From an uncultured Coriobacteriaceae bacterium (GTDB lineage Bacteria; Actinomycetota; Coriobacteriia; Coriobacteriales; Atopobiaceae): 64,000 bases of DNA. Both the position numbers and the translations under genes were made by a program. Shown here one piece after another: positions 19,365 through 36,965 of this stretch. Under the pieces are notes generated by a model, which saw only the letters and a program-made list of their open reading frames with translations, was not told where the DNA came from and did no database searches. The stretch covers positions 1 to 64,000 of the forward strand of contig CACYWP010000004.1 in the NCBI GenBank assembly GCA_902778135.1. The letters are read 5' to 3'. How positions within the stretch are numbered: position 1 is the first letter of the stretch; each line of letters starts with the position of its first letter.

Positions 19365-20711
19365 CTACTCGAAGCTCAGCTGCTCCAGACGGTCGAACAC
19401 CACGCCGATGCGACCGAGGAAGCTCCACGGGTCAAAGATTGCGTCCAGCTGCTCGGAGGTCAGCGTGCACTCGGGGTCATCTTCCAGGCGTTCGCGCAGC
19501 GTCTTGCCAGCGCGGGCCTGCTGGACGTCCTCCCACACCTCCATCGAGTTGCGCTGGACGATAGCGTAGGCAGCCTCGCGCGTGATGCCCGTGTCAACCA
19601 GCGCCAGCAATACCTTGGACGAGTAGATGAGGCCTCGCGTACGGTTGAGGTTGGCCTCCATGCTGCGCGGATACAGCACGAGCCCGTCGATGATGCGGAT
19701 GAGGCACTGGAACATGTGGTCCAGCGCGATGAAGCTGTCGGCCAAGGCGACGCGCTCGTTGGACGAGTGGCTGATGTCGCGCTCGTGCCACAGGGCGACG
19801 TTGTCGTAGGCCACCTGGGCGTTTGCCTTGACGCAGCGCGCGAGGCCGCAGACCTTCTCCACGGTGATGGGGTTGCGCTTGTGCGGCATGGCGCTGGAGC
19901 CCTTCTGCCCCTTGCGGAACGGCTCCTCCGCCTCCAGGGTGTCGGTCTTCTGGTAGGCGCGCACCTCCTGGGCGATGCGCTCGCAGCTGGCGGCCGTGGT
20001 GGCCAGGACGCTGGCCAGGTAGGCGTGGTGGTCGCGGCTGATGACCTGGGTGGACAGGGGGTCGCTGTCCAGGCCCATATGCTCGCAGACGTAGGCCTCG
20101 ATGAACGGGTCGATGGAGCTGTAGGTGCCCACGGCACCGCTGATGGCACCGACGGCCACCTGGCGACGAGCGTCGCGCAGGCGCTCCAGGTCGCGATAGA
20201 GCTCCCACGCCCAGCTGCCGAACTTCATGCCAAAGGTCATGGGCTCGGCGTGGATGCCATGGGTACGACCCACGCACAGGGTCTCCCGTTCCTCGAAGGC
20301 GCGGCGCTTGCAGATCTCGCCGAGGCGGCGGCAGTCCTCGATGATGATGTCGGTGGCCTGGGTCAGCTGGTAGCACAGGGCCGTGTCGCCCAGGTCGGAG
20401 CTGGTCATGCCGTAGTGGACCCAACGGCTGGGCTTGGGATCGCCCTCGGGAACGTCGGCATCGATGTACTCGCCCATGTTGGTGAGGAAGGCGATGACGT
20501 CGTGGTTGGTGACGGCCTCGATCTCGTCGACCTCCTCCTTCTTGAAGGCAGCGTGGTCGCGAATCCAGGCGGCCTCCTCGCGCGTGATGCCGATCTTGCC
20601 CATCTCGGCGTGGGCTTCGCAGGCAAGCACCTCTATCTCCTGCCAGATGGCGTACTTGTTCTCGAGGGAGAAGATGTGGCCCATCTCGGGACGGGTGTAG
20701 CGGTCGATCAT
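19365..20711 (-). CDS. purB: adenylosuccinate lyase
   Basis: 448 aa of the fumarase/aspartase superfamily. It cleaves SAICAR to AICAR and adenylosuccinate to AMP. Motifs: MTSSDLGDTAL, the GRTHGIHAEPMTFG catalytic segment and the family signature GSSAMPHKRNPI. The start is ATG at 20711 with GAAAGGA upstream, and TAGAAT (minus strand, 20748-20753) is a candidate -10. It follows argH with a gap of about 105 bp on the same strand, but its own promoter is likely. Confidence 0.97.
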   Translation of the reverse strand: MIDRYTRPEMGHIFSLENKYAIWQEIEVLACEAHAEMGKIGITREEAAWIRDHAAFKKEEVDEIEAVTNHDVIAFLTNMGEYIDADVPEGDPKPSRWVHYGMTSSDLGDTALCYQLTQATDIIIEDCRRLGEICKRRAFEERETLCVGRTHGIHAEPMTFGMKFGSWAWELYRDLERLRDARRQVAVGAISGAVGTYSSIDPFIEAYVCEHMGLDSDPLSTQVISRDHHAYLASVLATTAASCERIAQEVRAYQKTDTLEAEEPFRKGQKGSSAMPHKRNPITVEKVCGLARCVKANAQVAYDNVALWHERDISHSSNERVALADSFIALDHMFQCLIRIIDGLVLYPRSMEANLNRTRGLIYSSKVLLALVDTGITREAAYAIVQRNSMEVWEDVQQARAGKTLRERLEDDPECTLTSEQLDAIFDPWSFLGRIGVVFDRLEQLSFE

Positions 20712-20817: not shown

Positions 20818-22239
20818 CTACTCGATGACGCCGCCCTTGTCGCGGATGGCCTTCACCACGCGACGGTCGCGCTTCAGCTGCTGGCTGGCCTCGCGCAGCT
20901 GCTGGCGCACCGCGTCGTGGCCCGTCCCGCCATAGGTCGTACGGGCGCGCGCGATGGCCTCGGGGTCCAGCTCGCCGACGATGTCCTCGCGGAAGATCGG
21001 CGACGCCTTCTTGAACTCCTCCAGCGTCAGGTCCTCCAGTCCGCACTTGTGCTTCTCGCAGTACAGCACCAGCTCGCCGACGATCTCGTGGGCCTTGCGG
21101 AACGGCACGCCACGCTTGGCCAGGTAGTCGGCCACGTCCGTTGCCGCGGTAAAGCCCAACCCCGCCTCCTTCAGCATGATGTCGCGATGCACGGTCCACG
21201 TGTCGATCATGCCCTCCATGCAGATCATCGAGTCGCGCAGGGTGTCAAATGCGTCGATGGCACCCTCCTTGCATTCCTGCAGGTCCTTGTTGTAGGCCAA
21301 CGGCAGTGACTTCATGGTCACCATCAGCCCCACCAGGTCGCCCACGACGCGGCCGGTCTTGCCGCGCGTCAGCTCGGCGAAGTCGGGGTTCTTCTTCTGC
21401 GGCATGATGGACGAGCCCGTGGCGTAGCTGTCCGAAAGCGTGATGAATCCGAACTCGGTCGTGGACCACAGCACGATCTCCTCGCACAGGCGCGAGAGGT
21501 GCATCATGCTCATGCTGCAGGCATACTCCAGATCCAGCAGGTAGTCGCGGTCACTGACGGCGTCCAGCGAGTTGGGCGAGGGATGGTCGAACCCCAGCAG
21601 CTCGGTGGTATAGAAGCGGTCCAGCGGATAGGTGGTGCCCGCCAGCGCCGCGGACCCCAGCGGGTTGACGTCGGCGGCCTGGTATGCGTCGTGCAAGCGC
21701 TTGAAGTCGCGCGTGAACATCCAGAAGTACGCCAGCAGGTGGTGCGAGAACAGGATGGGCTGGGCGTGCTGCAGGTGGGTGTAGCCGGGCATGACGACGC
21801 CGAAGTACTTGCGTGCCGCCCGCGCGATGACCTTGCGCAGGGAGTAGTTCTCGGCCATCAGCGTCAGCAGCATGCTCTTGGCATGCAGGCGGATGTCGGT
21901 GGCCACCTGGTCGTTGCGCGAGCGCCCCGTGTGCAGGCGCTGGCCGGCGGCACCGATGTCGTCGATCAGCTCGCTCTCCACGGCCATGTGGATGTCCTCG
22001 TCGTTGATGTCGTACTTGAAGCGCCCTTGGTCGATCTGGTGCTCGATCTCCAGCAGGCCGACCTCGATGTGCTCGAAGTCGCTCTGGCTGATGACGCCCT
22101 GACGCGCCAGCATCCGGGCATGCGCAATCGATCCGGCGATGTCCTGGCGGTACATCTTCTTGTCCACCTCGAGCGACGCGCCGAACCGCTGCGTGAACTC
22201 GCTGACGCTCTGCTCGAACCTGCCGGACCACAGTGCCAT
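20818..22239 (-). CDS. argH: argininosuccinate lyase
   Basis: 473 aa. It catalyses the last step of arginine synthesis, argininosuccinate to arginine plus fumarate. The start MALWSGRFEQSVSEF is characteristic. Other motifs are HTGRSRNDQVATDIRL, the PGYTHLQHAQP catalytic histidine and the GSSIMPQKKNPD signature. The ATG at 22239 follows AGGAGAGA. argG lies 93 bp upstream on the same strand, separated by a strong hairpin. The pair is probably one transcript controlled by the leader upstream of argG. Confidence 0.97.
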   Translation of the reverse strand: MALWSGRFEQSVSEFTQRFGASLEVDKKMYRQDIAGSIAHARMLARQGVISQSDFEHIEVGLLEIEHQIDQGRFKYDINDEDIHMAVESELIDDIGAAGQRLHTGRSRNDQVATDIRLHAKSMLLTLMAENYSLRKVIARAARKYFGVVMPGYTHLQHAQPILFSHHLLAYFWMFTRDFKRLHDAYQAADVNPLGSAALAGTTYPLDRFYTTELLGFDHPSPNSLDAVSDRDYLLDLEYACSMSMMHLSRLCEEIVLWSTTEFGFITLSDSYATGSSIMPQKKNPDFAELTRGKTGRVVGDLVGLMVTMKSLPLAYNKDLQECKEGAIDAFDTLRDSMICMEGMIDTWTVHRDIMLKEAGLGFTAATDVADYLAKRGVPFRKAHEIVGELVLYCEKHKCGLEDLTLEEFKKASPIFREDIVGELDPEAIARARTTYGGTGHDAVRQQLREASQQLKRDRRVVKAIRDKGGVIE

Positions 22240-22268
22240 GGATCTCTCCTTATACGTTCCTATCAGAA

Positions 22269-22303
22269 GGTGAGCCAAAAGGGTTCGCCCCCTTTGGCTC
22301 ACC
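22269..22303 (-). other. intercistronic hairpin between argG and argH
   Basis: GGTGAGCC at each end and AAAGGG/CCCTTT inside form a stem of about 14-15 bp with a short loop. No U-run follows on the minus strand. mRNA stabilisation or partial termination are the likely roles. Confidence 0.5.
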
Positions 22304-22332: not shown

Positions 22333-23580
22333 CTAGAACTGGTCGAAGTCGTGGCCCTCGTTGGCGCGGTGCGAGCCGGGGCCCTGCACCTGCGACCACG
22401 TCTTGCTCTGCAGGCTATGGATGTCGATGAAGCCCTTGGAGGCGGTGCGGTCGAACGTGTCGCCCTCGCTGTAGGTGGCCAGGCCGTACTGGTAGATGGC
22501 ATAGTCGCTCTTGCGGCCCACGACGGTCAGGCTGCCCTTGTACAGCTTGAAGCGCACGTCACCGGTCACGAACTCCTGCGTGGAGGCGATGAACGCGTCC
22601 AGGGCCTTCTTCAGCTGGGAGAACCACAGGCCGTCGTAGATGAGCGTGGACCAGGTCTGGTCGATCTGATGCTTGTAGTGCTGGGTGTCGTGGTCCAGGA
22701 CCAGCGACTCCAGGGCCTGGTGGCACTTGATGATGGCCAGCGACGCGGGGCACTCGTAGCACTCGTGGCTCTTGATGCCGATGACGCGGTTCTCGATCAT
22801 GTCGATGCGGCCGAAGCCGTGGGCGCCCACCATCTCGTTGAGCTTGATGATCAGCGGCAGCAGCTTCATCTTCTCGCCGTTGATGGCGGTGGGGATGCCA
22901 TGCTCGAAGGAAAGAACGACGTATTCGGGGGTGTCGGGTGCCTCGGTGGGATCGACGGTCATCGTCCAGATGTCCGCGGGCGGCTCGTTCCACGGATCCT
23001 CCAGGACGCCGCACTCGATGGCGCGGCCCCACAGGTTGTCATCGATGGAGTAGGGCTTGGCGGCGGTGGTGGGCACCGGCACGTCATGCTCCTCGGCCCA
23101 TTCCATCTCCTGCTCGCGGGTCAGCAGGTCCCACTCGCGCACCGGCGCGATGATCTTGAGGTCGGGGTCCAGCGCATGGATGCAGGTCTCGAAGCGCACC
23201 TGGTCGTTGCCCTTGCCCGTGCAGCCGTGGGCGATGTAGTGGGCGCCGTGCTTGTGGGCGTAGTCCACCAGGTACTTGGCCAGCATCGGGCGGGAGAGGG
23301 CGGAGAGCAGCGGGTAGGTGTCCTCGTAGAGGGCGTTGGCGGCGATGGCCTTGGTCAGCACGCGGCTGGCGTAGGACTTGCGCAAGTCCACGGCGTCAGA
23401 GTAGATGGCACCCATGTTGTAGGCCTTCTGCTTGACCCACTCCAGGTCGGACTCGTCCTGGCCGACGTTGCCGCAGATGGCGATGACGTCGAGGTTCTTC
23501 TCGATCTGCAGCCACTTGACCATGACCGACGTGTCCAGGCCGCCGGAGTACGCGAGGACGACTTTCTCTTTCTCTGCCAT
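22333..23580 (-). CDS. argG: argininosuccinate synthase
   Basis: 415 aa. It condenses citrulline and aspartate using ATP. The PP-loop motif AYSGGLDTSV is at residues 9-18, with the AHGCTGKGNDQVRFE substrate loop and the SIDDNLWGRAIE motif. The ATG at 23580 is preferred to an in-frame ATG 9 bp upstream, because AAGGG overlaps that codon but is well placed for 23580. Upstream lie a 128-nt untranslated stretch, an intrinsic terminator and an Arg-rich leader peptide, which together suggest arginine-dependent attenuation of argGH. Confidence 0.97.
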   Translation of the reverse strand: MAEKEKVVLAYSGGLDTSVMVKWLQIEKNLDVIAICGNVGQDESDLEWVKQKAYNMGAIYSDAVDLRKSYASRVLTKAIAANALYEDTYPLLSALSRPMLAKYLVDYAHKHGAHYIAHGCTGKGNDQVRFETCIHALDPDLKIIAPVREWDLLTREQEMEWAEEHDVPVPTTAAKPYSIDDNLWGRAIECGVLEDPWNEPPADIWTMTVDPTEAPDTPEYVVLSFEHGIPTAINGEKMKLLPLIIKLNEMVGAHGFGRIDMIENRVIGIKSHECYECPASLAIIKCHQALESLVLDHDTQHYKHQIDQTWSTLIYDGLWFSQLKKALDAFIASTQEFVTGDVRFKLYKGSLTVVGRKSDYAIYQYGLATYSEGDTFDRTASKGFIDIHSLQSKTWSQVQGPGSHRANEGHDFDQF

Positions 23581-23707
23581 GTTGCTCATCCCTTCTGCGC
23601 GGATTGCCCGCTCTGTCTGACGTTCGTCGATTCGTATCGAATGGTGCCGTTAGTGCCTCTGTGTTGCATACGCGCTGGTAGCGCCCATGCCGCAACGCAT
23701 GGGCAAG

Positions 23708-23729
23708 AAAAAACCCGGCGACGCCGGGT
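23708..23729 (-). terminator. attenuator terminator in the argG leader
   Basis: On the minus strand an 8-bp stem ACCCGGCG/CGCCGGGT with a 1-nt apex is followed by TTTTT. It lies 128 bp before the argG ATG and about 62 bp after the leader-peptide stop. GUGUUGUUC (23780-23788), directly after that stop codon, can pair with GAACAGCAC (23728-23736), which overlaps the 5' edge of the terminator stem and so forms a candidate antiterminator. Confidence 0.8.
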
Positions 23730-23791
23730 GCTGTTCCGTCCGTATGTGCATCGAGGAGGTTGCTCGCTCCTTGGACCCAGAACAACACGCG

Positions 23792-23860
23792 CTAGCGTCG
23801 CGGCGTGGTACGTCGGTTCTGGCGTCGGAGGGAACCCTGCTTGGCGGTGGTGTGCTGCAT
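23792..23860 (-). CDS. argG leader peptide, Arg-rich (attenuator)
   Basis: 22 aa: MQHTTAKQGS, then LRRQNRRTTPRR. Six of the last eleven residues are Arg, in three Arg-Arg pairs, and each pair begins with a CGA codon (CGA-CGC, CGA-CGT, CGA-CGC). The ATG at 23860 has an unusually strong GAAGGAGGG site. The stop lies 62 bp before an intrinsic terminator that precedes argG. This is the classic layout of ribosome-mediated attenuation. When charged tRNA-Arg is scarce, the ribosome stalls on Arg codons and leaves the antiterminator segment after the stop codon free. When arginine is plentiful, the ribosome reaches the stop, masks that segment and the terminator forms. The regulatory role is inferred. 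Confidence 0.75.
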   Translation of the reverse strand: MQHTTAKQGSLRRQNRRTTPRR

Positions 23861-23931
23861 GTCGTTGCCCTCCTTCGTTCGTGTCCATGCGGCATGGCCG
23901 CGTGCGATTACGAGGGTTACCCTACCCTACC

Positions 23932-24001
23932 TATGCAAATCGATGCAACAAAGCCGCACGTATTGAAGCGTGTTGGAAACATACGCCATAGGATATGCAA
24001 A
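23932..24001 (-). promoter_or_regulatory. argG promoter region with two TTTGCATA half-sites
   Basis: TTTGCATA occurs on the minus strand at 23932-23939 and 23994-24001, and TTGCATC at 23942-23948. TTGCATA-like half-sites are reported for actinobacterial ArgR, so an ArgR operator is possible. The spacing is not a clean palindrome. The -35/-10 cannot be assigned with confidence. Confidence 0.25.
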
Positions 24002-24137: not shown

Positions 24138-27100
24138 TTACGCCACCTGCCTCCTTGCCCGCAGCGCCAGGCTCAGCCCCGCGATTGCCATGACCATGCC
24201 ACCGAACAGGTAGAACACCGCAGTTCCCATCCCGCCCGAGTTGGGCAGCGGCACGCCCGGCTCGTTGGTTATCGTCAGCAGCGCCAGGTTGTTCCCACTT
24301 GCCTTGACGAATTTCAGCGAATCGTCTTCGGTCACCATCTGCATCACGCGATCGGTGATCGTGAACTCGATGCGATCCAGCTGGCACACGTATCCAGCCG
24401 GCACGTACACCTCGTACAGCCGATAGGTCCCATCCGGCAGGCCGGCGAGCGTCTGCACGCCACCAGTGGTCTCGAAGGCGCTCTCGTAGGTCTTGGTCTC
24501 GCCGTCGACCACCTTCGTAACGGTGCCAAGACCGTCAACCTCTGTCAGTGGCGCCTCGCCGTCATCGCCAACGGACACCAAGCGGAACACCGCGCCTTCA
24601 AGCCCATTGCCGCTCTCGTCGACCTTCTGGATGGTGATGTCGGCGAGATGGTACCGGTTGGTAAAGACCGCGTAGTTGTGGTGGTTCGGAACGATGGTGC
24701 CCTCGATCTTCTGGTTGCGCAAATCGATGCTCGGATCGTCTACCTCAAGGTCATCAGCAGGGTCGATGGAGTAGTCGATGTCAATCAGCTCGTACCCCGT
24801 CTTGTTGCCCTCGGTGATGGTGTAGGTCGTACCCGCCGGGACGTTTGCGATGCTCAGGCGCTCGGTCTGGGAGATCCACAGCTCCGCCGTAGCGGTCTTG
24901 TTGCCATTTGACGAGGTGCTCTGGTTGCCCCACAGGTGCAGCGTCGTTTGCTCGCCGTCAACCAGATACGTGATGGTCTGCTCGCTGGCATCGTCGACGT
25001 CATAGGTGCCCACAACCTCATAGACATTGCCTGCCTCGTCCTTGAGCGTATAGGTTTCGCCGTTATAACTCACCTGGTAGTAGTTGAAGTCCGCGTCATG
25101 GTAGAAGAGGTCGTTGATGGCGTACCAGGGGATGTGCGTGCCATCGAACGGAGCGTCGGCGTTGTTCAGGACGACCGTGTACTTGAACTTCGTCCTGTTG
25201 GATTCCATCCGCTGTCCGTCCTCGTCGACGACCACCTTCTCCAGATGGATGTAGCCGCGCAGCGTGTTCTCCACCTTGAGTGAGGACAGCCCCGTCGTGG
25301 TGGTGGTCATGTCGGAGATGCTGATGCTGTTGTCGCTCTGCGTGAAGATGACGTTCTGCATCTTGCCGTCCACCAGCATGGGATGGAAGACGTCCGCCTC
25401 GAAGTCGAACTCGTAGGACAGGCCACGCTCCTTTATCGTGTAGTCATGCCCGTTTTCCAGCAGGTAGTAGGTCTTGGTGATGGTTTCTCCGTCTTCCTCG
25501 TAGCTGTAGGTGCCAGACGGATAAGCGCTCTTGTCCATCTCCAGCGCATCCATCCGCTCCTCGCTGAGCATCAGGCCGGTGGAAATCGCGAAGTCCTTCT
25601 TCCATGTGGTGCCAATCTGGTAGGTCTGTTTGTTGTACTCGATGTCCCGTACGCTGTCTGCCTCCCAGACATACTCGTTGAGCGTCGAGTCCCAACCCAG
25701 GTTCACCGTGGTGTACGGGGTCGTATTGGTGCCCTGGAAGATGTCGAACCCCAGCGTGTAGTGCTCACCGCTAGCCGGATACAGCAGCTGTGCCAGGATG
25801 CTCGGGTTCATGTCGATGTTCCACTGCTTTTCGATGGCATAGTCAGTGTCGACCAGGTCCATCGGCTTCTGCTTTTCAAGATTCACCGGCTCCTGCGGAT
25901 CTGTCGTAATCGTTGTGTCGCCCGTCAGTTCGTTTGTCTGCGTGTTGACGATGGAGTAGTTCAGCTTCTGATGCGTGTTGGTCAGAACGCTGTACACATC
26001 CTGGTTCGCATACCGCACGATCGAGGAGTGCGCTTCGACGCCTCCGGTGTAGTATCCGTACGTCTGGTCGCCGACGGTCACCTCATAGTAGTTGTCAGGA
26101 TTGCTCTCGACGCTGCTGTCCCACGTGTATCCCTCGAGGTGGTTGTTGAGGCCCGCGACGTAGTCGTACGCGGCCTGGTTCGGCCACACGATGAGATCCA
26201 TCTTGTAGGTGCATTCGGGCAGCAGTATGCCGATTGCCGACAGGTCCCACGTCAGCTCCCGACCGTTGAGGTCCGCGAGCGCCATCTTGTATTCCGCCCC
26301 TCCCACCGAAACGGAATAGTACGGCTTGTTGTCCATGCCAACCTTGCTGGCCCCGGCGTCGTAGTCGACCCCGTCGATATGGAAGGTGACCGTCGGGTTG
26401 GTGTCGCTGCCGCTCGCGGTGACATAGTACAGCTCGGTGCCGTTTTTGTCGGTGACAGAATAGCGGTAGCCGCCTGCATTGCCCGCATGAATCGTCGTCG
26501 TCATGGCGTCGGCAGACTGCAGGCCGTCCTCGAGGACCACCTGGCCATGGCCGGTGGTGCTCATGATGTCGGCAAAGATGTTCTCGAATGCCGCGGCCAG
26601 ATTCTCGGGCGTGTCGGCGTTGGTGAAGTACTTCTTAACGATCTCGGTGTCTTCCGTCGTCGCTTCGTTCTCGTACGCCTTGTCGACGCCGGTATAGGCA
26701 AAGTTCATCAGGCGACGCAGGTACTTCGTCTGGGCCTCGCCGGGATTGAAGGTGAAGATGCCGTAGAACTTGTAGCCAGCGTCGACGATCTCCTTGGCCC
26801 GGTCGAGGGAGTTCTTGCCGTCGTCGCTGTTAGGTGGCGTCCCGTACCATCCAGTCGCCTGCCTGTCTTCGGTCAATGCGAACTCGAAGCCGCCACGCTC
26901 GGAATTGTAATGATACGCGTCCCCAGATTCCCCGGCCACCGCAGTGGGCTCGCCATCCGTCAGGAAGATGACGTACAGGTCCTCATTCGGCTGGTCTTCC
27001 TTCTTCTGGTCGGCGATCTCCTTGGCATACATCAAGGCGTCTTCCCAGTTGGTGCCAGAGGGGCAGTGGGTCTGGTTGATGGCGGTCATCAGGTCCGTAT

Positions 27101-30077
27101 AACCTTGCACGGCATCGCTTGCCCAACCGGTGTATTCCGTGTTCTTCCCCGTCTGCCTCTCGTCCGCAAAACTGATCACCGAAATTTCGATGATATCGCT
27201 TTTGCCCGGAGTGTTCGGGTCGTTCTTGCCAAGCAGATCTTGGATCAGGACATCCATTGCCGCCTGTTCGGCCGCAAGGCGCGTAACACCGGTATATACC
27301 GTTCCGTTATACGGCCGCCCCCAGTAGTAGTATCGTCCACCTTGATACGTAAGGGTAAAAAAGGTCTTTCCATTGTCATTGCTACCATAATATGTCGTAC
27401 CATTCTGGTATGCCCCAGTATATGGAATATAGTCCACATTATTGTTCTTCATACTGCTCGAACGGTCCATGATGAACAGTACGTTCTTCTTGTCATAGAT
27501 AATCTCGGAGTAGGAGTCTCCCTTGACCGTCAGTGACAGGGTGTACGTGCCGTCATTGTTGTTGGTCAGGCTCTTGTGCGCCTCGATGTCTTTGAGTGTC
27601 CCGCTGCCGGTCGGCACGAGCCTCGACATGGCCAACGGGCTCATCTGGTACGGCACGTTGTCAAAGGTCTTCTGACCGACATAGGTGCCGACGCCCGAGA
27701 AGCTGTCCTGCTCGTAGGAGAACTCGACCAGCTTGCCCTTCTTGTTGCGCTTGGTCTCCACGTCGTCGATCAGCTCCACGCCGTCCTTGGTGTAATGGGC
27801 GACGCCGACGATTGCCTCGTCCTTTGCGGCGCTTGTCTCCAGCCCGTCTACATAGCGGATGTCGACCTGGACGGGCGCCTTCGGCTCCACCTCATCGTCG
27901 CCATGCATGAGCTTGATGTCGAAGAATCGCGCGTCGTCCAAGTTCACCGGGCGGATGTCCTCGCCCTCGCGGTCGTCCAGTCCGCCGTTGTTATTGTGCT
28001 GCAGGGCCTTTTCCTCCTGCTCGAGGTAGTCCTTGTTGACCTCCTCCCAGGCCTGGCACAGATGCTGGACGTACTCGTCGCTGTCCTCTTTGATTTCCTT
28101 CGCGACCAGCTTGGTCCCCCGCGGGATCTCGGCATCGTCGTCGAAAGTCACGGTGATCTCGTAGGTCTTCCCGTCGGCCGTCAGGACGTTGGTGGTAATC
28201 TGCTCGTCTGTCACATGGATGGCCACCTTCTCACCGTTGGTCATGGTGATGGTCAGGGTCTCATTGGTGTCGAACGCCGCCAGCGAGAGGAGCGCCCAGT
28301 CGGGTGCGGCCAGCTGTCGCGCTTCCATCTCGGCAATCTGCTCGGATGTCAGCTCTGCACTGTACGTAGGCTGCAGGCCCAAGCTCTTGACCAGCTCGCT
28401 TACCGTCATGGTCTCGTCCATGCGCGCCACGGCCACCAGCTCGGGGTCGGAGAAGGTGACGTCGGCGACATGGCTCACGAATCCGTCGAACTCATCCTCT
28501 CTCACGATGCCCAGCGCGGGCAGGAGCTCGCGCAGGCACGTCGCGCCGCCACCCTGGATGCTCCAGACATAGTCCTGTCCGTCGACCACCCAGTGGAAGT
28601 CCACGGTATACACAACGCCCCAGACCGAGAAGCTGTCGGCGTCGAAGGTCGTCACGCCATCGTCCTCGCTGGCGGGGACCAGCTCGGCAGTCTTCCCAAA
28701 GTGCACGACATTCGCCTCGGCGCCGGACGGCGCGTCGGCCAGCTCAATCTCGACCTGTACGGGCTCGGCCGGCTGGATTTCGGAGCCGTCCGCAGCCAGA
28801 ATCGTGATGTCAAAGAAGCGAGCAAGCTCGACCTCTTCCGCTCCGATTGCCGCGAGGGCATCGGACTCGTAGCCCTGCCAGTCGGAGCTGCCCTGCGCGA
28901 CCTCGCGCACCTGCAGCTCCGCATCCTGCGGGATGCCCGCCCCCGCCGGCGCGTCCACCGTCACGGTGACGGTCGCTCCGTCGCTTGCCTGCATGACCTT
29001 GTGCAGGGACGTGACGGCCAGCACGTAGGTCGAGAAACGGTCGCTCTCGAAGGACAGCTGGTTCTCGGAGAGTTCGACGTCACGACGGGCGAGCTCGCGA
29101 TCGGAGAGCGCCTCGAAGGCCTCGGCGGAACGCTGGGGCTCGGCTTCCTCGGCGGTCTTTCCGTCCATGAGGGCGAACTCCTGCTGGCGCAGCTGGTCGT
29201 CGGTCAGGTCGTCAATGTGCACGATGAGTGCCTTGTCGTCGGTATTGATGAGTCCGGACGTCATGGTCACGGTCACGTTGGCCGCAGGCTCGACCTTGGC
29301 GCCGGTAGCGTCGCGGAACTCGATGTCCACGGCCTGCATGCCCAGCACCTGGCCGTCAACCTTGGCTGCGATGGCGCCGTCGACCGCATCCTGCTGCTTC
29401 TGGGACATGGTCGCGGGGTCGACCCACGTGGCCACCATCGTGGTCCCCTTGGGCAGCGCGCCCACCGGGGCCTCAACATCCACGCGAAGGATCAGGTGCT
29501 GGTCAGCGTCCCTGAACTCGTGCTTGAAGGCCTGTGCGGGATGGGTCGCGGCCAGGGCCGCGTCGCCCGCCTCCTGCGACAACGGGCTTCCGGCGACCAG
29601 ACCCTGGTCCTCCGTCGGCACTGCGTCGGGAACCTCGACCTCGACCGTCGTGAAGCAACCGGACCCATGCACGTGGGTCTCGGTGGCCTCGTCCTGTCCG
29701 CAGACGAGGGTCCGCTCGGTCTCGTAGCACGAGTCGTCGTGGGTGTGGCCCTCGCCCTCCTCGAGCTTGCAGGTCAGCACGCGCTCCTCCAGGTAGCAAG
29801 AGTCATCGTGGATGTGGATCTCGCGCTCCGGCAAGGGGCAGACAAGGTTGCCGTACTCGTCGTAGCAGCTGTCGTCGTGCGTGTGCGCAGCGATTCCGTC
29901 GAAGCGACAGTCCAGCACCTGCTGCGTGGTGATGGATGCATGTCCCTCTTGCGTCAGCACGGAGGCCACGCTCATCGCGACTGTCACGGCTAGCAGAGCA
30001 AGTGCGGCCAGATACTGGTTGCGACGCTTTTCGTCCTTCAAGAGACGGGCAATCTTCTTTCTCACCTTAGTCGGCAT
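24138..30077 (-). CDS. giant vWA-domain cell-wall-anchored surface protein
   Basis: 1979 aa. A basic N-terminus and hydrophobic signal segment (about 21-42) precede His/Cys repeats of HxHDDSCY...C type (about 48-140). A Glu/Asp-rich region shared with the two paralogs runs to about 650. A von Willebrand A domain (about 865-1120) has MIDAS DRSSSM beginning at D871. Cna-B/prealbumin-like modules include a SpaA-type domain at about 1812-1925. The C-terminus is LPNSGG, a hydrophobic helix and RARRQVA, a non-canonical sortase signal. vWA plus SpaA modules are typical of pilus-tip or adhesin proteins. The ATG at 30077 is chosen because MPTKVRKKIARLL matches the paralogs and GGGAGG is upstream. A dedicated sortase and pilin partners are not in the window. 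Confidence 0.85.
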   Translation of the reverse strand: MPTKVRKKIARLLKDEKRRNQYLAALALLAVTVAMSVASVLTQEGHASITTQQVLDCRFDGIAAHTHDDSCYDEYGNLVCPLPEREIHIHDDSCYLEERVLTCKLEEGEGHTHDDSCYETERTLVCGQDEATETHVHGSGCFTTVEVEVPDAVPTEDQGLVAGSPLSQEAGDAALAATHPAQAFKHEFRDADQHLILRVDVEAPVGALPKGTTMVATWVDPATMSQKQQDAVDGAIAAKVDGQVLGMQAVDIEFRDATGAKVEPAANVTVTMTSGLINTDDKALIVHIDDLTDDQLRQQEFALMDGKTAEEAEPQRSAEAFEALSDRELARRDVELSENQLSFESDRFSTYVLAVTSLHKVMQASDGATVTVTVDAPAGAGIPQDAELQVREVAQGSSDWQGYESDALAAIGAEEVELARFFDITILAADGSEIQPAEPVQVEIELADAPSGAEANVVHFGKTAELVPASEDDGVTTFDADSFSVWGVVYTVDFHWVVDGQDYVWSIQGGGATCLRELLPALGIVREDEFDGFVSHVADVTFSDPELVAVARMDETMTVSELVKSLGLQPTYSAELTSEQIAEMEARQLAAPDWALLSLAAFDTNETLTITMTNGEKVAIHVTDEQITTNVLTADGKTYEITVTFDDDAEIPRGTKLVAKEIKEDSDEYVQHLCQAWEEVNKDYLEQEEKALQHNNNGGLDDREGEDIRPVNLDDARFFDIKLMHGDDEVEPKAPVQVDIRYVDGLETSAAKDEAIVGVAHYTKDGVELIDDVETKRNKKGKLVEFSYEQDSFSGVGTYVGQKTFDNVPYQMSPLAMSRLVPTGSGTLKDIEAHKSLTNNNDGTYTLSLTVKGDSYSEIIYDKKNVLFIMDRSSSMKNNNVDYIPYTGAYQNGTTYYGSNDNGKTFFTLTYQGGRYYYWGRPYNGTVYTGVTRLAAEQAAMDVLIQDLLGKNDPNTPGKSDIIEISVISFADERQTGKNTEYTGWASDAVQGYTDLMTAINQTHCPSGTNWEDALMYAKEIADQKKEDQPNEDLYVIFLTDGEPTAVAGESGDAYHYNSERGGFEFALTEDRQATGWYGTPPNSDDGKNSLDRAKEIVDAGYKFYGIFTFNPGEAQTKYLRRLMNFAYTGVDKAYENEATTEDTEIVKKYFTNADTPENLAAAFENIFADIMSTTGHGQVVLEDGLQSADAMTTTIHAGNAGGYRYSVTDKNGTELYYVTASGSDTNPTVTFHIDGVDYDAGASKVGMDNKPYYSVSVGGAEYKMALADLNGRELTWDLSAIGILLPECTYKMDLIVWPNQAAYDYVAGLNNHLEGYTWDSSVESNPDNYYEVTVGDQTYGYYTGGVEAHSSIVRYANQDVYSVLTNTHQKLNYSIVNTQTNELTGDTTITTDPQEPVNLEKQKPMDLVDTDYAIEKQWNIDMNPSILAQLLYPASGEHYTLGFDIFQGTNTTPYTTVNLGWDSTLNEYVWEADSVRDIEYNKQTYQIGTTWKKDFAISTGLMLSEERMDALEMDKSAYPSGTYSYEEDGETITKTYYLLENGHDYTIKERGLSYEFDFEADVFHPMLVDGKMQNVIFTQSDNSISISDMTTTTTGLSSLKVENTLRGYIHLEKVVVDEDGQRMESNRTKFKYTVVLNNADAPFDGTHIPWYAINDLFYHDADFNYYQVSYNGETYTLKDEAGNVYEVVGTYDVDDASEQTITYLVDGEQTTLHLWGNQSTSSNGNKTATAELWISQTERLSIANVPAGTTYTITEGNKTGYELIDIDYSIDPADDLEVDDPSIDLRNQKIEGTIVPNHHNYAVFTNRYHLADITIQKVDESGNGLEGAVFRLVSVGDDGEAPLTEVDGLGTVTKVVDGETKTYESAFETTGGVQTLAGLPDGTYRLYEVYVPAGYVCQLDRIEFTITDRVMQMVTEDDSLKFVKASGNNLALLTITNEPGVPLPNSGGMGTAVFYLFGGMVMAIAGLSLALRARRQVA

Positions 30078-30102
30078 GCCTGCGCCTCCCTCATTTATCA
30101 GT

Positions 30103-30184
30103 CCGGGACGCATTGCCCCGGAGAATAGCCTTTGGCACATCTTAGCTTCATGCGGGGCGCAGGAATTAGGCCTGTCTGAATTGT
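30103..30184 (-). promoter_or_regulatory. surface-gene promoter: upstream element, -10 and palindrome (vWA gene)
   Basis: Reading toward the gene: ACAATTCAGACA (30173-30184), 45 bp, TATTCT (30122-30127), then the inverted repeat CCGGGgcaatgcgtCCCGG (30103-30121), then the ribosome site. The same order and spacing occur before the genes at 36965 and 47707. The upstream element sits near -60, suited to an activator. The palindrome begins near the predicted transcript start. Confidence 0.55.
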
Positions 30185-30413
30185 AATACCTGCATTGTTG
30201 GATGTAAGGTTTTCGCGCTGCATATGTGTACACATTGTCGTTTGGAGGATTTGAGCGACGCTTTCCATTTATATATTAGAGTTCTTTTGTATAACTTTTG
30301 TCTCTTTGGAAGACTCGTGCAACCAGGATTGTCGCGGCCATGGGCCAATCCGGAAGTCCCTCGTAGCGTTGAGCTCCAACGCTCCGACACGCGCCGTTCT
30401 TTTTTGCGCAGAA

Positions 30414-30456: not shown

Positions 30457-30772
30457 CTACGCCATCCTTCTTCTTCGCACCAGCATGAGCAGTGCTCCGA
30501 TCATGAGGCTCGTGCCGACAGTCACGAAGATTCCCGTGCCAGGGCCGCCGGCGTTGGGAAGGGCGGCACCGTAGGTGTTACCGACCCTGAATGTCGCATT
30601 CGCAGCTTCTGTCGGCGGATTACCGTCAGGATTCGCTTCCTGCGCTCCCATGAAGTACACAGTTGCGCCACCACTATTTGGAGCAGCTGTCCATTCAGAA
30701 GGTTTATTGCTTCCCTTCTGTACGTACGTTATCACGCCTCCATCAACCCTTAGATAGAAAGTAACATCTTGT
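30457..30772 (-). pseudogene. frameshifted C-terminal wall-anchor segment of the mosaic surface protein
   Basis: This frame encodes the missing end of the gene at 30750-36965. It reads DVTFYLRVDGGVITYVQKGS, then about 55 residues, then LPNAGG, a hydrophobic helix and the basic tail LVRRRRMA. The upstream frame changes into it near 30770, where TAC AAG ATG would read TAC AAA GAT with one extra A, so a one-base loss in an A-run is the simplest explanation. The segment would not be translated unless the frame is restored. Sequencing error, strain-specific decay and phase variation cannot be separated here. Confidence 0.75.
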
Positions 30773-33700
30773 AGGTCAAATTGGAAAAAGTTAATCTTCC
30801 GTTGGAACCCGTTGTCGCGCTCGTAACAATCACCTGATCGTTTTCTTTTACATACGTCAAGGTTCCGCCAGGAGTCGGCGCCACATCTTCCAGTTTCCGC
30901 AGCTCGAACACCGCGCCGGGCAGATGTGTTGTCGTCTCATTGCCTTTTTCCACTTTGAGAACATCCACTTCCGTCGGGATTTCCGTGTAGATGTTTTCAA
31001 TTGTAAAGCTGTTTTCAGCTGAGGTCGAAGTGTAAGCAATGTCTACTCTCACCTCATGGCTGGAGGATTTATGAGGTATTTTTACCTGATTCCCTTCAAA
31101 GTAAATCGTCCTGCCGCCATAGGAGAAGCTGTCTCCCTGTATCTCATGGCTGAAGTAAACAAAGTTCATCACCCATTGAGCGTTAGCGCCATCATCTCCC
31201 GGTATCTTTCCGCCATTGTCCCGAAGCTTTTTCTCGATTGCCTGCCTTGTGGAATAACTCAAAGACTTCTGCGAAACAATGACCGTAGCATGATTTGTCA
31301 TGCGTACAAGGAGAATCTGATTATCCTCGACGGTAAATACTTTATTGTTGTCCGTTGTGGTGTAATCGCTTGTGGGATTCGTCATTGTGATCTCAGGCAC
31401 AAGTACGGATACGGTCTGCGGAACTCCCGGATTCTGTACTTCACTGCCGTTGATCTTTGTGATTCGTGTATAACCGGTGATATCGTAGTTGCTCTCGTAA
31501 ACCCCAAAACCCGTGGCGGTTTTAGGAATCTGGGTAATTCTCCAGTGCCAAGTCAGACCGTCAAGACTCTTGGTACAGGTAACGTTTCCTTGCGTGGATC
31601 CTGTCAATGGAACGATCACGGGTGACCCATTATATGTATAGGTCAGCACCGCCTCATAATTTGCGGGAATCTTAGATGAATTCGGCAGACCCGTAAAGGT
31701 CTTCTCCAGCTCGATCGCCAGTTCGTCCGGATTATCGCTCTCCTCCTTGTTGTTCGTGAAGCTGGCAATCGCGGGCTTATTTGTAGTCTGATCCGCTGTT
31801 ATTGTTACCTTGATACGGTTTTCATCCGGTGTAACGCCGGTCTGGCTCGGAGTCTGTTCTTCAATCCAGTAATCCCCGACCGGAAGCTTGACCGTTTCGC
31901 TGGATTTCGCGGCTCCGTCTTCGCCGATCGTGACGGTGAGCTCCAGATCGGTTGCCTGCTGATTTGGCGCCTCTCCTTGAATCACCTTATAGGGTTTCGA
32001 GCAATTTTCGTCGGTATACACATTAAAGGTATATGTACCGGCCAGGTCAGACTTCTTTCCATCCGGCACCGGTGAAATACCATTATATGTTACTGCCTTA
32101 TCGATTCGGAGGTAACCGGTCGGCACCTTATTGGTAATCGTCTGCGTTCCGGATGTCGACGTCTCCGCATCAGTCGGAGAGTTGATCGGATTTCCTGCGA
32201 GATCCGTATAGACTACCGTTGTTCCCTCGGGAGCTGTATTGCTCACCTCTTCCAGATAATAGGTGTAGTTGAAGGCGACATCATAACTGGTCCCGTCTAT
32301 AACAACGGTTCCTCTGCCGAAGGTCGGCAGTTCGGTAAAGTCATAGGACCATGTGTTCGGATCGATCGGCAGCGTGACCTGATTACCGGTCACATGATCG
32401 CCGGTGTAGCTGAAGTCAGGATCCGGTTCGGTATGAGTAGTGAATTCGTGGATGACACCGCCGCCGGAGTTGCCGTAGAACTGCTGTCCCGCAACGTTGA
32501 TACTGCGGATAGCCTCGCCGTTTTCAGAGTTATCGATTACATAGAATGTAGCCGATCCACCGGCAGCCGGCATGTTAAAAGCCTGAGAATAAACATTGGT
32601 TGAAACAGGCGTTTTGGGATATTGCGTTCCGTTCAAAATATATCCGACAGTTCCATCATACCCGTCTTTATAACCCCAGGAAACCGTTGGCCGAGTCCCG
32701 GCGACAAGATCATATTCCGCGTGAATATGAGTCTCTCCGTTGTGGATCCAGCCGACCGTCAGGTGGGAAACCTGTCTTCCCTCTCCCTCAATCGTCTGTT
32801 CCCTATACGTCTCATAGGTCCGGATCCGCTTGATCTCGAAGGTCGCCTCAGCGCCTGCAGGGGCGGTGATGGTTTCGTCATCTTCATTCTGCCATACTTT
32901 CAACAGCCCGAGATCGATCGGCTGCGGCTTTTTATTTGTGATTTTGACGCCTTCCTCCACATCCTGATCGTCTATCTCGACCTTGATTTTTACCTGTCCT
33001 GTCGACTGATCATAATATACTTCAACTGTATGAATCGTATTATCGAGCGGATATCCGGCCGGTGCATGAAGCTCCTTCAGATAATATGTTCCGAGCGGGA
33101 TATCCGAAAACTGAACATGACCAGTAGCGTTTGACCTTGCGACATATGCCCGTGACGTTCCGTCTTTCAGATTCTCCATCAGCGGTGTTGTGCAGCCTGC
33201 ATCCTTGTAGATCCCAAACACAGCGCCCGCCAGTTGATCACTCGGCTCATCCTCATCGACCTTGTCAAAATGAATGTCGCCGTACAGCGTCATGTTGAAC
33301 TGGATCCTACAGTTGGAGTCGCAGCCGCCGCGCTCGATGTAGAACACCTGCAGGGTGTGCTGCTTTCCGTCGTACAGATCCGGGAAGCGGCTACTGAACT
33401 GGCTGGCAGTCAACTGCCTATTACCGTTGACCGTAACCACCCCGGTCTGGAAATTGATCGTACCGGAGGTGGGCTGGTGGATGCCGCCGATATCCATGGC
33501 CAGCTTGCCGTCGATGAACACCCACAGGTCGTCATCGCCGGAGAATTCAAAGACAATGGGCTGTCCGTTCGTGTCGACCACGGCCTTTGGATCCTTCGGC
33601 AGGCTGAACGGCACGCTCATGGACATGCCGAAGTGATGGTTCAGGTTCTTGTTCCAGTTCACATACAGGTCATACTGATTGTCCCAGCGATGGAACGGGA

Positions 33701-36700
33701 AGAAGCCAATGGCTTTGTTCTGGGTCGTCCCCGATTCGCCACCGCTCTTTTGGTTATACGTGCTGTTATAAACTTGGAAACTACCGCCGTTTCCCTGTGA
33801 GACATCATAGTAGGCATAGTTCTGATTGCTGTCGTAGACGTAATAATCGCCATCTTTCTTGAACAGCCCATTTACATTTGTATATGCCTTTTTATCCGTG
33901 CCGTCAGAAGGTGTGAACAGGTAGGACAAGTCCCTGTTTCCTGATCCGCCGCTATTGTTACTTAATACAGGATAACCTGCCGAATTCAGGTTTGTGTTAA
34001 CAATGCTCGTGACGCCATGTTCCACATATTGGTTCAGACTTCCGTAATTATTTCCGATGCCGCTGCCCCAGAACTTGAGAGCGTTTCCGCTGTTAATACC
34101 ATGGCCGGCGAAATCGCTGATGCAAGTATTGTCATAATGGGAGGAACCATTAAAATAATCATCCAGATAATTATCCAGATCGTAGTCAAACAGATTCAAA
34201 GTCAGGCCGATGCTGGCGTTATTGATCGTATCGATCGTCGCCGGGGGCGTCGTCCCGGTTCGTGCGGGGCGCACCGTGATCTCTTTATATTGCCCCTGAT
34301 TATATCTGTTATAAATACGGAATGTACCCGTACTGATTGCTGTTACAGTTTTGAAATTGTCGTCATCCGGCTGCAGTTGTCCCCAACCATCAGGATCCCA
34401 TCCGTTATTATGCTTTGTCTCTGACACTACAGACCCGATATTGGTGACCCAGTAGTCCGCCTGGTCCCACATGTAAATCTCATCACCAACATAGATTGTA
34501 CTCGGAAGATTGTTGAAGCTGTGTTCAGAAGTTGTATCGAATAGATAATCGGAGAAGGATTCCGTCTCGAACTGCATGACGATCTTGTCATCCGTCATGT
34601 TGTTCTCTACATCCTCTATGATCTCAGCGGTTCCGTCGTCGGCAATATGCGCAATCCTGCATCCGGTCAGGACGACGTCATCAAGGGAAATCTCCTGGCC
34701 GTTGAACAGGATCATGCCTGTCTCCTTCTTGGACGACAGGACTCCCTCGAGGTCCGCATCTTCCACAGCAGATGCAGCCTCTTCAAACATAGACTTTGCC
34801 AGTCTAATCTCCACTTTTACAGTGCTGCCCTCTTTGGGCTCCACCTCTTCGTCTCCAGAAACGATACTGATGTCGAACTGCACCGGATTGGATACTTCCG
34901 ACTCATCGTTGGATGCAAGCTCCTTGTTGACCAGATCGATGTTTTTGGCAAACTCTTTGGAGTCGCTTCGGAGCTCTTTGACCACTAGCTCCGCATCCTC
35001 GGGAATCCCGGCGCTCTCATCGTAAGTGACAATCACTTCATAGGTATCACCAGAATCGGATATCACATATGTATGCAGCTGCCCATCGGAAACTTTGACC
35101 GTAAAGACCTCGCCGTTGGTCATGGTGATGGTCAGGGTCTCTTCGGTGTCGAAGGGCTTCAGGCCGACAAGCGCCCAGTCGGGGGCTGCCAGCAGCTTTG
35201 CGTCCATGGCGGCGATGTCCTTCTTGGACAGCTCGGCACTGTACTCGGGCTGCAGGCCCTGGGCCTTCTTCAGCTCGCCCGCAGTCGTGTCCGCGGTCAC
35301 CTGCGCCACGGCGATGAGGCTCGGGTCGGAGAACTCGACGCTCGCGATGTGGGCCACGAAGCCGTCAATCGCGTCGGCGTCCACGGCACCCAGCGCGGGC
35401 AGCAGCTCGCGCAGGCCCACGGCGTCGCCACCCTGCAGGTTGTACTCGAAGTCCTGGCCGTCCACGTTCCAGTGGAAGTCCACCGTGTAGACCACGCCGT
35501 AGACCGAGAAGCCGCTGGCGTCGAACGTGGCCACGCCGGCGTCCTCGGTGGCGGGCACGACCTCGGTCTCTTCCCCGAAGTGCACGACAGACGCCTCGGC
35601 GTCCTTGGGGGCGTCGGCCAATTCAATCTCCACCTGCACCGGCTGGGCCGGCTGGATCTCCTGGCCGTCCTCGCCCACGATCGCGATGTCGAAGAAGCGG
35701 GCCAGCTCCGACTCGTCGGCGCCGATGGCGCCGAGCGCCTGGGCCTCGTAGCCCTGCCAGTCGGCGCTGCCCTGGGCGATCTCCTGCACCCGCAGCTCGG
35801 CGCCCTGCGGGATGCCCGCCTCGGCCGGCGCGTCCACGGTCACGGTGACCGTCGACCCGTCGCTCGCCTGCATCACCTTGTGCAGCGACGTGACGGCCAG
35901 CACGTAGGTGCTGAAGCGGTCGCTCTCGAAGGAGAGGCGGTCGTCGCCCGCGGCGACGTCGCGCTGGGCCAGGGCCTGGTCGCTCAGCTGGCCGAGGACC
36001 TCGGCGCTGCGCGCGGGCTCGGCCTCCTCCGCGGACGCGCCGTCGCGGATGGCTTGCTCCTGGGCCCTCTCCTGGGCCTCGGTCAGGTCGTCGATGTGCA
36101 CGACCAGCGGCTGGTCGTCCGTGTTCACCAGCGCGGAGGTCATGGTCACGGTGACGGGCGCCGCCGGCTCGACCTCGGCGCCGAGGGCGTCGACGAACTT
36201 GATGTCCACCGCCTGCATGCCCAGGACCTGGCCGTCGGCCTTCTTTGCGATGGCGCCGTCGACCGCGTCCTGCTGCTTCTGGGACAGGCTCTCGGGGTCG
36301 ACCCACGTCGCGACCATCATCGAGCCGGCGGGCAGCGCGCCCTCGGGCGCCTTCACGTCCACGCGCAGCACCAGGTTGCCGTCCGCGTCCTTGAACTCGT
36401 GGTAGAGATTCTGCTCGGGATGGGTCTCTGCCAGTGCGGGGTCCTGAACGGCGGGGGTAGCCGCCTCCTTGCCGGGAGTCGCGGGGACAGCCCCGTCCCC
36501 GGCCGGCTCCTCGTCGGGCACCTCGACATCGACGGTCCTGAAGCAGCCGGGCCCGTGGACGTGGGTCTCGGTGACCTCGTCCTTCCCGCAGACGAGCGTG
36601 CGCACGACCTCGTAGCACTCGTCCGTGTGTACGTGCCCCTCGCCCTCCTCGAGCCCGCAGACGAGGACGCGCTCCTCGGCGTAGCAGGAGTCGTCGTGAA

Positions 36701-36965
36701 CGTGCGCCTCAACCTCGGGCAGGGGGCAGACGAGGTTGCCGTCCCCGTCGTAGCAGGACTCGTCGTGGGCGTGGGCCACCGTCCCGGTGACGGGGCAGTC
36801 CAGGACCCGGACCTCCTGCGTGGCGGCGTGGCCCTGCTGGGTCAGCACCGCCGCCACGGCCACCACCACCACCACCGCGAGCATCGCGAGCGCCGTCAAG
36901 TACTCGTCGCGGCGCCTCTTGTCGCCCAGAATGCGGGCGATCCGCCTTCTCACCTGCGTCGGCAT
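30750..36965 (-). CDS. giant fibro-slime/Cna-B surface protein, mosaic, frameshifted before the anchor
   Basis: 2071 aa to the premature stop. Residues 1 to ~620 (signal segment, His/Cys repeats, acidic repeats) closely resemble the paralogs and are GC-rich. From about residue 625 (near 35,090) to the frameshift the DNA is visibly AT-richer. This part contains a fibro-slime domain (about 1045-1235, with FEFSGDDDLWVFIDGKLAMD), a SpaA-like domain (KVDEDEPSDQLAGAVFGIYKD) and several Cna-B/prealbumin modules (for example TGYLRIDKAV and GDYWIEEQTPS). The frame ends NLTYKMLLSI-stop instead of continuing to the LPNAGG anchor at 30457-30530. If expressed as read, the product would be secreted unanchored. 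The ATG at 36965 has GGGAGG upstream and matches the paralogs. Confidence 0.8.
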   Translation of the reverse strand: MPTQVRRRIARILGDKRRRDEYLTALAMLAVVVVVAVAAVLTQQGHAATQEVRVLDCPVTGTVAHAHDESCYDGDGNLVCPLPEVEAHVHDDSCYAEERVLVCGLEEGEGHVHTDECYEVVRTLVCGKDEVTETHVHGPGCFRTVDVEVPDEEPAGDGAVPATPGKEAATPAVQDPALAETHPEQNLYHEFKDADGNLVLRVDVKAPEGALPAGSMMVATWVDPESLSQKQQDAVDGAIAKKADGQVLGMQAVDIKFVDALGAEVEPAAPVTVTMTSALVNTDDQPLVVHIDDLTEAQERAQEQAIRDGASAEEAEPARSAEVLGQLSDQALAQRDVAAGDDRLSFESDRFSTYVLAVTSLHKVMQASDGSTVTVTVDAPAEAGIPQGAELRVQEIAQGSADWQGYEAQALGAIGADESELARFFDIAIVGEDGQEIQPAQPVQVEIELADAPKDAEASVVHFGEETEVVPATEDAGVATFDASGFSVYGVVYTVDFHWNVDGQDFEYNLQGGDAVGLRELLPALGAVDADAIDGFVAHIASVEFSDPSLIAVAQVTADTTAGELKKAQGLQPEYSAELSKKDIAAMDAKLLAAPDWALVGLKPFDTEETLTITMTNGEVFTVKVSDGQLHTYVISDSGDTYEVIVTYDESAGIPEDAELVVKELRSDSKEFAKNIDLVNKELASNDESEVSNPVQFDISIVSGDEEVEPKEGSTVKVEIRLAKSMFEEAASAVEDADLEGVLSSKKETGMILFNGQEISLDDVVLTGCRIAHIADDGTAEIIEDVENNMTDDKIVMQFETESFSDYLFDTTSEHSFNNLPSTIYVGDEIYMWDQADYWVTNIGSVVSETKHNNGWDPDGWGQLQPDDDNFKTVTAISTGTFRIYNRYNQGQYKEITVRPARTGTTPPATIDTINNASIGLTLNLFDYDLDNYLDDYFNGSSHYDNTCISDFAGHGINSGNALKFWGSGIGNNYGSLNQYVEHGVTSIVNTNLNSAGYPVLSNNSGGSGNRDLSYLFTPSDGTDKKAYTNVNGLFKKDGDYYVYDSNQNYAYYDVSQGNGGSFQVYNSTYNQKSGGESGTTQNKAIGFFPFHRWDNQYDLYVNWNKNLNHHFGMSMSVPFSLPKDPKAVVDTNGQPIVFEFSGDDDLWVFIDGKLAMDIGGIHQPTSGTINFQTGVVTVNGNRQLTASQFSSRFPDLYDGKQHTLQVFYIERGGCDSNCRIQFNMTLYGDIHFDKVDEDEPSDQLAGAVFGIYKDAGCTTPLMENLKDGTSRAYVARSNATGHVQFSDIPLGTYYLKELHAPAGYPLDNTIHTVEVYYDQSTGQVKIKVEIDDQDVEEGVKITNKKPQPIDLGLLKVWQNEDDETITAPAGAEATFEIKRIRTYETYREQTIEGEGRQVSHLTVGWIHNGETHIHAEYDLVAGTRPTVSWGYKDGYDGTVGYILNGTQYPKTPVSTNVYSQAFNMPAAGGSATFYVIDNSENGEAIRSINVAGQQFYGNSGGGVIHEFTTHTEPDPDFSYTGDHVTGNQVTLPIDPNTWSYDFTELPTFGRGTVVIDGTSYDVAFNYTYYLEEVSNTAPEGTTVVYTDLAGNPINSPTDAETSTSGTQTITNKVPTGYLRIDKAVTYNGISPVPDGKKSDLAGTYTFNVYTDENCSKPYKVIQGEAPNQQATDLELTVTIGEDGAAKSSETVKLPVGDYWIEEQTPSQTGVTPDENRIKVTITADQTTNKPAIASFTNNKEESDNPDELAIELEKTFTGLPNSSKIPANYEAVLTYTYNGSPVIVPLTGSTQGNVTCTKSLDGLTWHWRITQIPKTATGFGVYESNYDITGYTRITKINGSEVQNPGVPQTVSVLVPEITMTNPTSDYTTTDNNKVFTVEDNQILLVRMTNHATVIVSQKSLSYSTRQAIEKKLRDNGGKIPGDDGANAQWVMNFVYFSHEIQGDSFSYGGRTIYFEGNQVKIPHKSSSHEVRVDIAYTSTSAENSFTIENIYTEIPTEVDVLKVEKGNETTTHLPGAVFELRKLEDVAPTPGGTLTYVKENDQVIVTSATTGSNGRLTFSNLTYKMLLSI

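Follow-up and report, generated by a model that had tools for sequence, protein, structure and literature searches.

The minus-strand region in front of argG and argH, at positions 23860-23708 of the window (the whole 64,000-nt stretch of an uncultured Coriobacteriaceae genome analyzed here), is very probably a ribosome-mediated transcription attenuator of the trp/his type that senses charged tRNA-Arg, in which a stalled ribosome would allow read-through into argG. A first-pass annotation had proposed that argG, and probably argH, are controlled through Arg codons, and our comparative checks support this interpretation, argH lying behind argG. The observations that carry it are an Arg-rich leader frame, a bias of this frame towards CGA, covarying RNA helices, a position before argG, and a fit of stall and stop positions in a folding model. 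The elements concerned are listed here.

Positions 23919-23948, minus strand: predicted promoter, consisting of TTGCAT (23948-23943), an 18-nt spacer and TAGGGT (23924-23919).
Positions 23868-23875, minus strand: strong ribosome-binding site AAGGAGGG of the leader peptide, read from the sequence.
Positions 23792-23860, minus strand: leader peptide frame of 22 codons, translated from the window as MQHTTAKQGSLRRQNRRTTPRR and a stop.
Positions 23822-23827, minus strand: Arg pair 1, CGA CGC.
Positions 23816-23822, minus strand: region 1 (CCAGAAC), which forms helix 1:2 with its partner 23783-23777, as judged from the predicted fold and partner swaps.
Positions 23810-23815, minus strand: Arg pair 2, CGA CGT.
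Positions 23795-23800, minus strand: Arg pair 3, CGA CGC.
Positions 23794-23792, minus strand: stop codon of the leader frame.
Positions 23773-23788, minus strand: region 2 (GUGUUGUUCUGGGUCC), the 5' side of the antiterminator, whose first part would be covered by a ribosome at the stop codon.
Positions 23728-23741, minus strand: region 3 (GGACGGAACAGCAC), the 3' side of the antiterminator, which ends in the two bases that form the terminator stem's foot.
Positions 23708-23729, minus strand: intrinsic terminator, with the 7-bp stem ACCCGGCGTCGCCGGGT (23729-23713) and a U run.
Positions 22333-23589, minus strand: argG, argininosuccinate synthase (PF00764, PF20979).
Positions 20818-22302, minus strand: argH, argininosuccinate lyase, downstream of argG (PF00206, PF14698).
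Positions 449-525, plus strand: tRNA-Arg(ACG), the sole CGA-reading tRNA among those typed in the genome.

The 22-codon frame, its ribosome site, the three CGA-led Arg pairs, the stop and the terminator had all been described by the first-pass annotation, and their presence and coordinates were confirmed in the sequence. The three Arg-Arg pairs sit within the last 11 codons of the frame. A leader frame with a ribosome site, clustered Arg codons ahead of argG-argH and a terminator before argG are found together. The leader region lies between argG and a large surface-protein-like gene (24138-30233). The latter, also on the minus strand, gave SpaA and VWA domain matches and its product looks like a surface adhesin; it is one of four minus-strand frames of about 2000 to 2600 codons (24138-30233, 30750-37028, 39860-47722 and 48080-54271). 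At the other end of the locus, an adenylosuccinate lyase gene (19365-20711, minus strand) stands directly behind argH and possibly shares a transcript with it.

A consensus scan found no promoter on either side of the leader terminator. The promoter predicted at 23919-23948 would place the start of the argGH transcript near 23912. In a 16-row upstream alignment its -10 part (GTAxxGTAC) was retained in most rows, and TTGCAT was present in only about one-third of them.

We infer the transcript start, expression of the leader, stalling, switching, read-through and the response to arginine, which would be connected in the following way. With ample arginine, the ribosome would reach the stop codon and cover region 2, leaving the terminator free, and transcription would end near 23708. 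With charged tRNA-Arg(ICG) scarce, the ribosome would stall at the CGA codon of Arg pair 1 or 2 and cover region 1, upon which region 2 would pair with region 3 and take the terminator foot. Once the foot is occupied, RNA polymerase would proceed into argG and then argH.

The distribution of the leader was determined with a covariance model (R1) built from 17 leaders. R1 matches occurred in 75 of the 140 genomes of the window's family, spread over 15 of its 35 genera, and 74 of the 77 matches in the family lie 35 to 180 nt upstream of argG on the same strand. Across the order, 86 of 395 genomes gave matches: 74 of the family, 10 of a genus of another family (g97), G233 and G253. All 10 matches in g97 precede argG, with the argH start motif next in 9 of them. 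The matches in G069, G233 and G253 and the additional ones in G324, G085 and G029 were rejected as chance, because no argG start motif was found in the stretches read; several of these rejected matches fall inside other frames. Outside the order, nine weak matches in eight genomes (E values of 5.7e-5 to 7.3e-4 per genome, among 396 genomes of the phylum) are probably due to chance as well. R1 gave no second leader before a gene other than argG. It does not detect the frames upstream of argG in a third family, f10 (three genomes read, L238 to L240), which end in AIRRQRAISRRR and a stop; the f10 frame is a diverged form of the leader frame. Close relatives of the window's argG itself (90 to 96% identity) were found in eight Atopobiaceae/Coriobacteriaceae records, with sources including water-deer ileum and sheep jejunum. 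In one genome, an additional argG copy and fragments (G032:C2:494-3189) lie beside the leader-bearing argG.

In the family, R1 did not match where argR stands directly before argG. Among the 122 of 140 genomes with argG, argR lies in the same orientation no more than 1.5 kb upstream of argG in 20, all of which lack an R1 match. A further 28 of the 122 have neither an R1 match nor an adjacent argR; upstream regions were read in 20 of these, and ten g52 and four g53 genomes (L133 to L146) lack such a leader, while the six genomes of g49, g15 and g4 retain leader remnants. Bacterial arginine biosynthesis is usually explained by repression through ArgR. Loss of ArgR as the reason for the leader was rejected, since an ArgR gene is present elsewhere in the window's genome and in 58 of 74 leader genomes. 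The leader is therefore no substitute for a lost repressor, and arginine control may also act on the promoter. A repeat, TGCATCGATTTGCAT, lies at 23933-23947 on the minus strand, between the predicted -35 and -10; it resembles ArgR operators and could be one. A scan for a shared ArgR operator with a loose motif matched twice in the region of argJ of the window's genome, at positions 1015 and 5868 of L235. The match at 5868 stands about 1.5 kb before argJ and has a 7-base rather than a 5-base gap; there was no match in L218, L236 or L237, nor near argF or argR.

Of the 84 genomes with a leader, 56 contributed to an alignment in which conservation of the frame was assessed: 46 of the family's 74 and all 10 of g97. 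A frame-finding script connected an in-frame start to the core in 54 of the 56 leaders, and inspection by eye did so in the other two, L124 and L130. Purine-rich sites resembling AAGGAGGG precede the leader in relatives, the script having required such a motif before the start, and are weak in L125 and L127. Codons were tabulated for 55 leaders, L012 being excluded for its different layout. Counting from the first CGA, the opening codons of Arg pairs 1 and 2 (codons 1 and 5) are CGA in every one of the 55 leaders. That of pair 3, codon 10, is CGA in 44 of 55; its neighbor, codon 11, drifts and encodes Arg in only 32 of 55, and the frame of four leaders stops at codon 10 or earlier. The second codons of the pairs make use of CGC and CGT. 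Altogether, CGA accounts for 71 of 154 Arg codons in leaders L001 to L023, compared to 1 of 335 in argG of L002 to L023, and the 13 Arg codons of the window's argG are all CGC. A codon table drawn up from every long frame in the window was set aside, since some of those frames were spurious ones running antisense to argGH. Relatives thus retain the frame rich in Arg, whose conservation the first-pass annotation had put forward as a check, and its CGA codons.

At the level of the peptide, RRQxRR is the most conserved part and the N-terminal part drifts freely. This would suit a nascent-peptide sensor, in which ribosome arrest by RRQxRR in the exit tunnel, jointly with free arginine or some other ligand, would determine the RNA fold; the f10 leaders L238 to L240 also keep RRQ. 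The fungal arginine attenuator peptide (arg-2/CPA1) likewise stands for arginine control by an upstream peptide: it arrests ribosomes at high arginine and acts on translation, whereas the argG leader has Arg codons and a transcription terminator instead. Fungal-type arrest at the stop by a conserved peptide is argued against by the argG leaders themselves, in which the distance of the stop from the first CGA ranges from +21 to +66 and the residues that precede the stop are unconserved. Moreover, pair 3 preserves its CGA more often than its Arg partner; what is conserved there is CGA rather than Arg as such, which points to decoding. We therefore regard a nascent-peptide sensor as unlikely, even though an Arg-Leu-Arg motif is described for antibiotic-responsive stalling leaders in PMC8632094.

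The leader can form three RNA helices that compete with one another, namely helix 1:2, the antiterminator (helix 2:3) and the terminator, and these RNA elements were evaluated by covariation. Regions 2 and 3 contain the segments GTGTTGTTC (also given as GUGUUGUUC, 23788-23780) and GAACAGCAC (23736-23728), which pair over 9 bp with one G-U. This pairing had been noted in the first-pass annotation and stands, but the overlap with the 5' arm of the terminator that was ascribed to it amounts to two bases only (23729-23728), these being all that the 9-bp helix and the terminator stem have in common. The full competitor of the terminator in the window is the 9-bp helix plus an extension that takes in the last Arg codons. 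Between 23500 and 24140, counting both strands, there were 3 terminator-like sites, against 0.5 in shuffles. Free-leader folding alone was unremarkable (z of -0.93); the evidence that sets the leader apart from chance is comparative.

In a structure-blind MAFFT alignment (A1) of 17 of 24 leader loci, the seven diverged ones being left out (L011 to L016 and L029), the helix 2:3, its inner extension and the terminator were paired in 85.2% of cells, compared to 81.5% after shuffling, and the covariation was 0.183, compared to 0.134 (sd 0.012) after shuffling and at most 0.121 in slid registers. Two of the five measures were ordinary: pairs with two-sided changes were as numerous in 119 of 500 shuffles, and pair types in 110 of 500. 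A second alignment (A2), which contains 55 distinct leaders and was fitted to the model's structure and hence favors it, had 92 cells with two-sided changes, compared to 37.3 (sd 6.4) after shuffling and at most 39 in slid registers. In the 55 distinct leaders the five model pairs of the terminator were formed in 96.3% of cells. A terminator finder located an intrinsic terminator in 45 of the 56 aligned leaders and no terminator followed by T in the other 11, among them the same-genus leaders L007 and L009.

Exchanging helix partners among 17 leaders in 5,000 permutations gave pairings as good as those of the true partners 0 times for helix 2:3 and once for helix 1:2. The inner helix showed no species-specific partner preference (490 of 5,000 permutations as good). 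The same held for the complementarity between GCGACGC, in the codons around the last Arg pair (23801-23795), and GCGTCGC in the terminator loop (23724-23718): as the first-pass annotation had noted, the two are complementary, and they are paired in the window's predicted fold, but 1,082 of 5,000 permutations were as good. This helix between Arg codons 5 and 6 and the terminator loop is not supported as a conserved feature, although it contributes in the window. The shuffle and swap tests do not control for relatedness, which was allowed for with a quick tree of 54 argG proteins (L120 and L126 being left out, as the search pattern found no argG there). On this 54-row tree, helix 2:3 requires at least 33 two-sided compensatory changes, compared to 7 to 16 in slid registers. 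The alignments, the swaps and the argG tree therefore all provide the compensatory changes that had been suggested as a check of the competing helices, and these back the antiterminator.

Strong covariation would also be compatible with an RNA that itself binds arginine or ArgR, the frame being incidental, and ArgR is indeed encoded in the genome. We consider such a riboswitch or protein-bound RNA highly improbable. The frame and its CGA codons are retained across the aligned leaders, the invariant bases of the leader lie mostly within codons, and the helices are alternative duplexes of changing sequence. In addition, an Rfam search of the window at gathering thresholds gave three tRNAs only and matched neither a T-box nor any other described RNA family.

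The fit of a translating ribosome to these helices was modeled by placing its leading edge 12 nt downstream of where the A-site codon begins. Under this assumption, region 2 stays free in stalls at Arg codons 1 to 5 and is partly covered in a stall at the sixth. A ribosome at the stop covers the first six bases of region 2 when the stop lies at +33, as in the window, or the whole 9-bp arm when it lies at +42 or later; in six leaders the stop, at +21 to +30, is too early to cover region 2 in the window's register. In a nascent-transcript model of 17 leaders, the mean probability of helix 2:3 was 0.70 to 0.84 with the ribosome at Arg codons 1 to 5, 0.18 at codon 6, 0.00 at the stop (partly from the masking of region 2) and 0.46 without a ribosome. 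In the window, the probability of the terminator (outer pairs) was 0.96 for a ribosome at the stop and 0.00 for one at Arg codon 1 or 3, the latter value being explained by an antiterminator that reaches across the last Arg codons into the terminator arm. A ribosome at Arg codon 4 or 5 left the terminator at 0.93 and 0.96, respectively, and both hairpins stood in the model, which suggests that effective stalling would take place at pair 1 and at the first codon of pair 2. Without a ribosome, helix 1:2 would favor the terminator in the window (probability of 0.88), though not in every relative.

Opposite folds at stall and stop were found in the window and, with the same 12-nt edge, in 26 of the 44 leaders that could be scored, in which the probability of the terminator dropped by more than 0.3 with the ribosome at Arg codon 1; the reverse was seen in none. 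The 44 exclude, from the 56, the 11 leaders in which the finder gave no terminator and L130, for which the script missed the stop. The mean drop over the 44 was 0.52, compared to 0.10 with the exposed segment shuffled, and in 40 shuffle sets it did not exceed 0.19 in any, with at most 10 of 44 leaders dropping by more than 0.3. In the remaining 18 of 44 leaders, where the equilibrium model gives no drop above 0.3, the antiterminator and a shortened terminator can coexist, and a kinetic effect or a weakened shortened terminator must therefore be assumed.

An ordinary terminator accompanied by a chance frame, in which the hairpin ends some transcript from upstream and the argG promoter lies downstream of it, would be compatible with a possible promoter within 23708-23589 and with the lack of a consensus promoter on either side, but is extremely improbable given the conserved position before argG in 74 genomes of the family, the CGA bias, and the compensatory changes that link the sequence just behind the frame to the terminator foot.

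The preference for CGA was considered in light of the tRNA supply. The window's genome (98.6% complete) yielded 45 tRNA genes, all of them typed; the Arg tRNAs among them are ACG, CCG, TCT and CCT, and no tRNA-Arg(UCG) was among the 45. CGA is thus read by the inosine form of tRNA-Arg(ACG), whose modification to inosine is well established. The gene for this tRNA had been pointed out in the window by the first-pass annotation and is the sole CGA reader among the tRNAs found. Experiments with his-leader constructs in Salmonella gave significantly faster reading for CGU and CGC than for CGA, and de-attenuation was high with Arg pairs that include CGA, the CGA codons stalling ribosomes strongly (PMC4046918). 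In theory, leaders should favor the codon whose reading responds most sensitively to starvation (PMC1183508). Both the his-leader data and the use of CGA in the leader far above that in argG could also speak for a general slow-codon sensor, in which CGA slows the ribosome regardless of arginine and gives a fixed read-through, or a response to tRNA inosine modification or growth rate; this we regard as scarcely credible, since the second places of the pairs hold other Arg codons (CGC and CGT), three pairs would be superfluous for a fixed pause, and every verified match is followed by argG, which fits amino-acid sensing.

The attenuator of charged tRNA-Arg proposed here is of a textbook kind. 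Like the trp and his attenuators (PMC1183508), it combines a short frame containing codons for the product, competing helices, an intrinsic terminator and biosynthetic genes behind. It differs from them in that the amino acid is arginine, in that the regulatory codon is CGA, read by inosine wobble, and in that the place of the argG leader's stop relative to region 2 differs among species, ahead of this region in some and behind it in the rest. The attenuators of trp, trpS, leuS, ilvB and cys in Actinobacteria were likewise predicted from leader peptides, terminators and antiterminators by comparison, and in the same phylum; the abstract of that survey (PMC1262725) names tryptophan, cysteine and leucine, with no arginine among them, and the argGH leader belongs to another order. 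The uORFC-8-2 before cysS of Rhodobacterales, also discovered comparatively, carries tandem codons (Cys) for the matching amino acid but precedes a tRNA synthetase gene, in another phylum and for another amino acid, as described in PMC8632094. Full-text searches of open-licence papers, with subscription papers outside their scope, yielded no bacterial arginine leader peptide; in two papers on arginine in Staphylococcus aureus among the results, an attenuator appears solely in a reference on leucine.

What is new is therefore not the mechanism, with its trp/his layout, but arginine and the use of CGA as a trip wire. With somewhat less confidence than for the attenuator itself, we think it likely that the leader is the first ribosome attenuator specific for arginine in bacteria and that it divides sensor and effector within a single tRNA: the CGA codons of the leader, the worst for the inosine tRNA-Arg, would serve as the trip wire, and argG, which uses almost only CGC and CGT, better codons of the same tRNA, would still be made into enzyme while the sensor stalls. 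In one order, the leader would stand in for the arrangement in which argG is linked to argR.

An attenuator common to two families of one order, with a diverged frame in a third, would extend the range of amino acids that stalled ribosomes sense to arginine. Why leaders prefer certain synonymous codons, here CGA over CGC and CGT of the same tRNA, becomes a testable question, and the argG genes with a leader, set against those directly behind argR, constitute a natural experiment.
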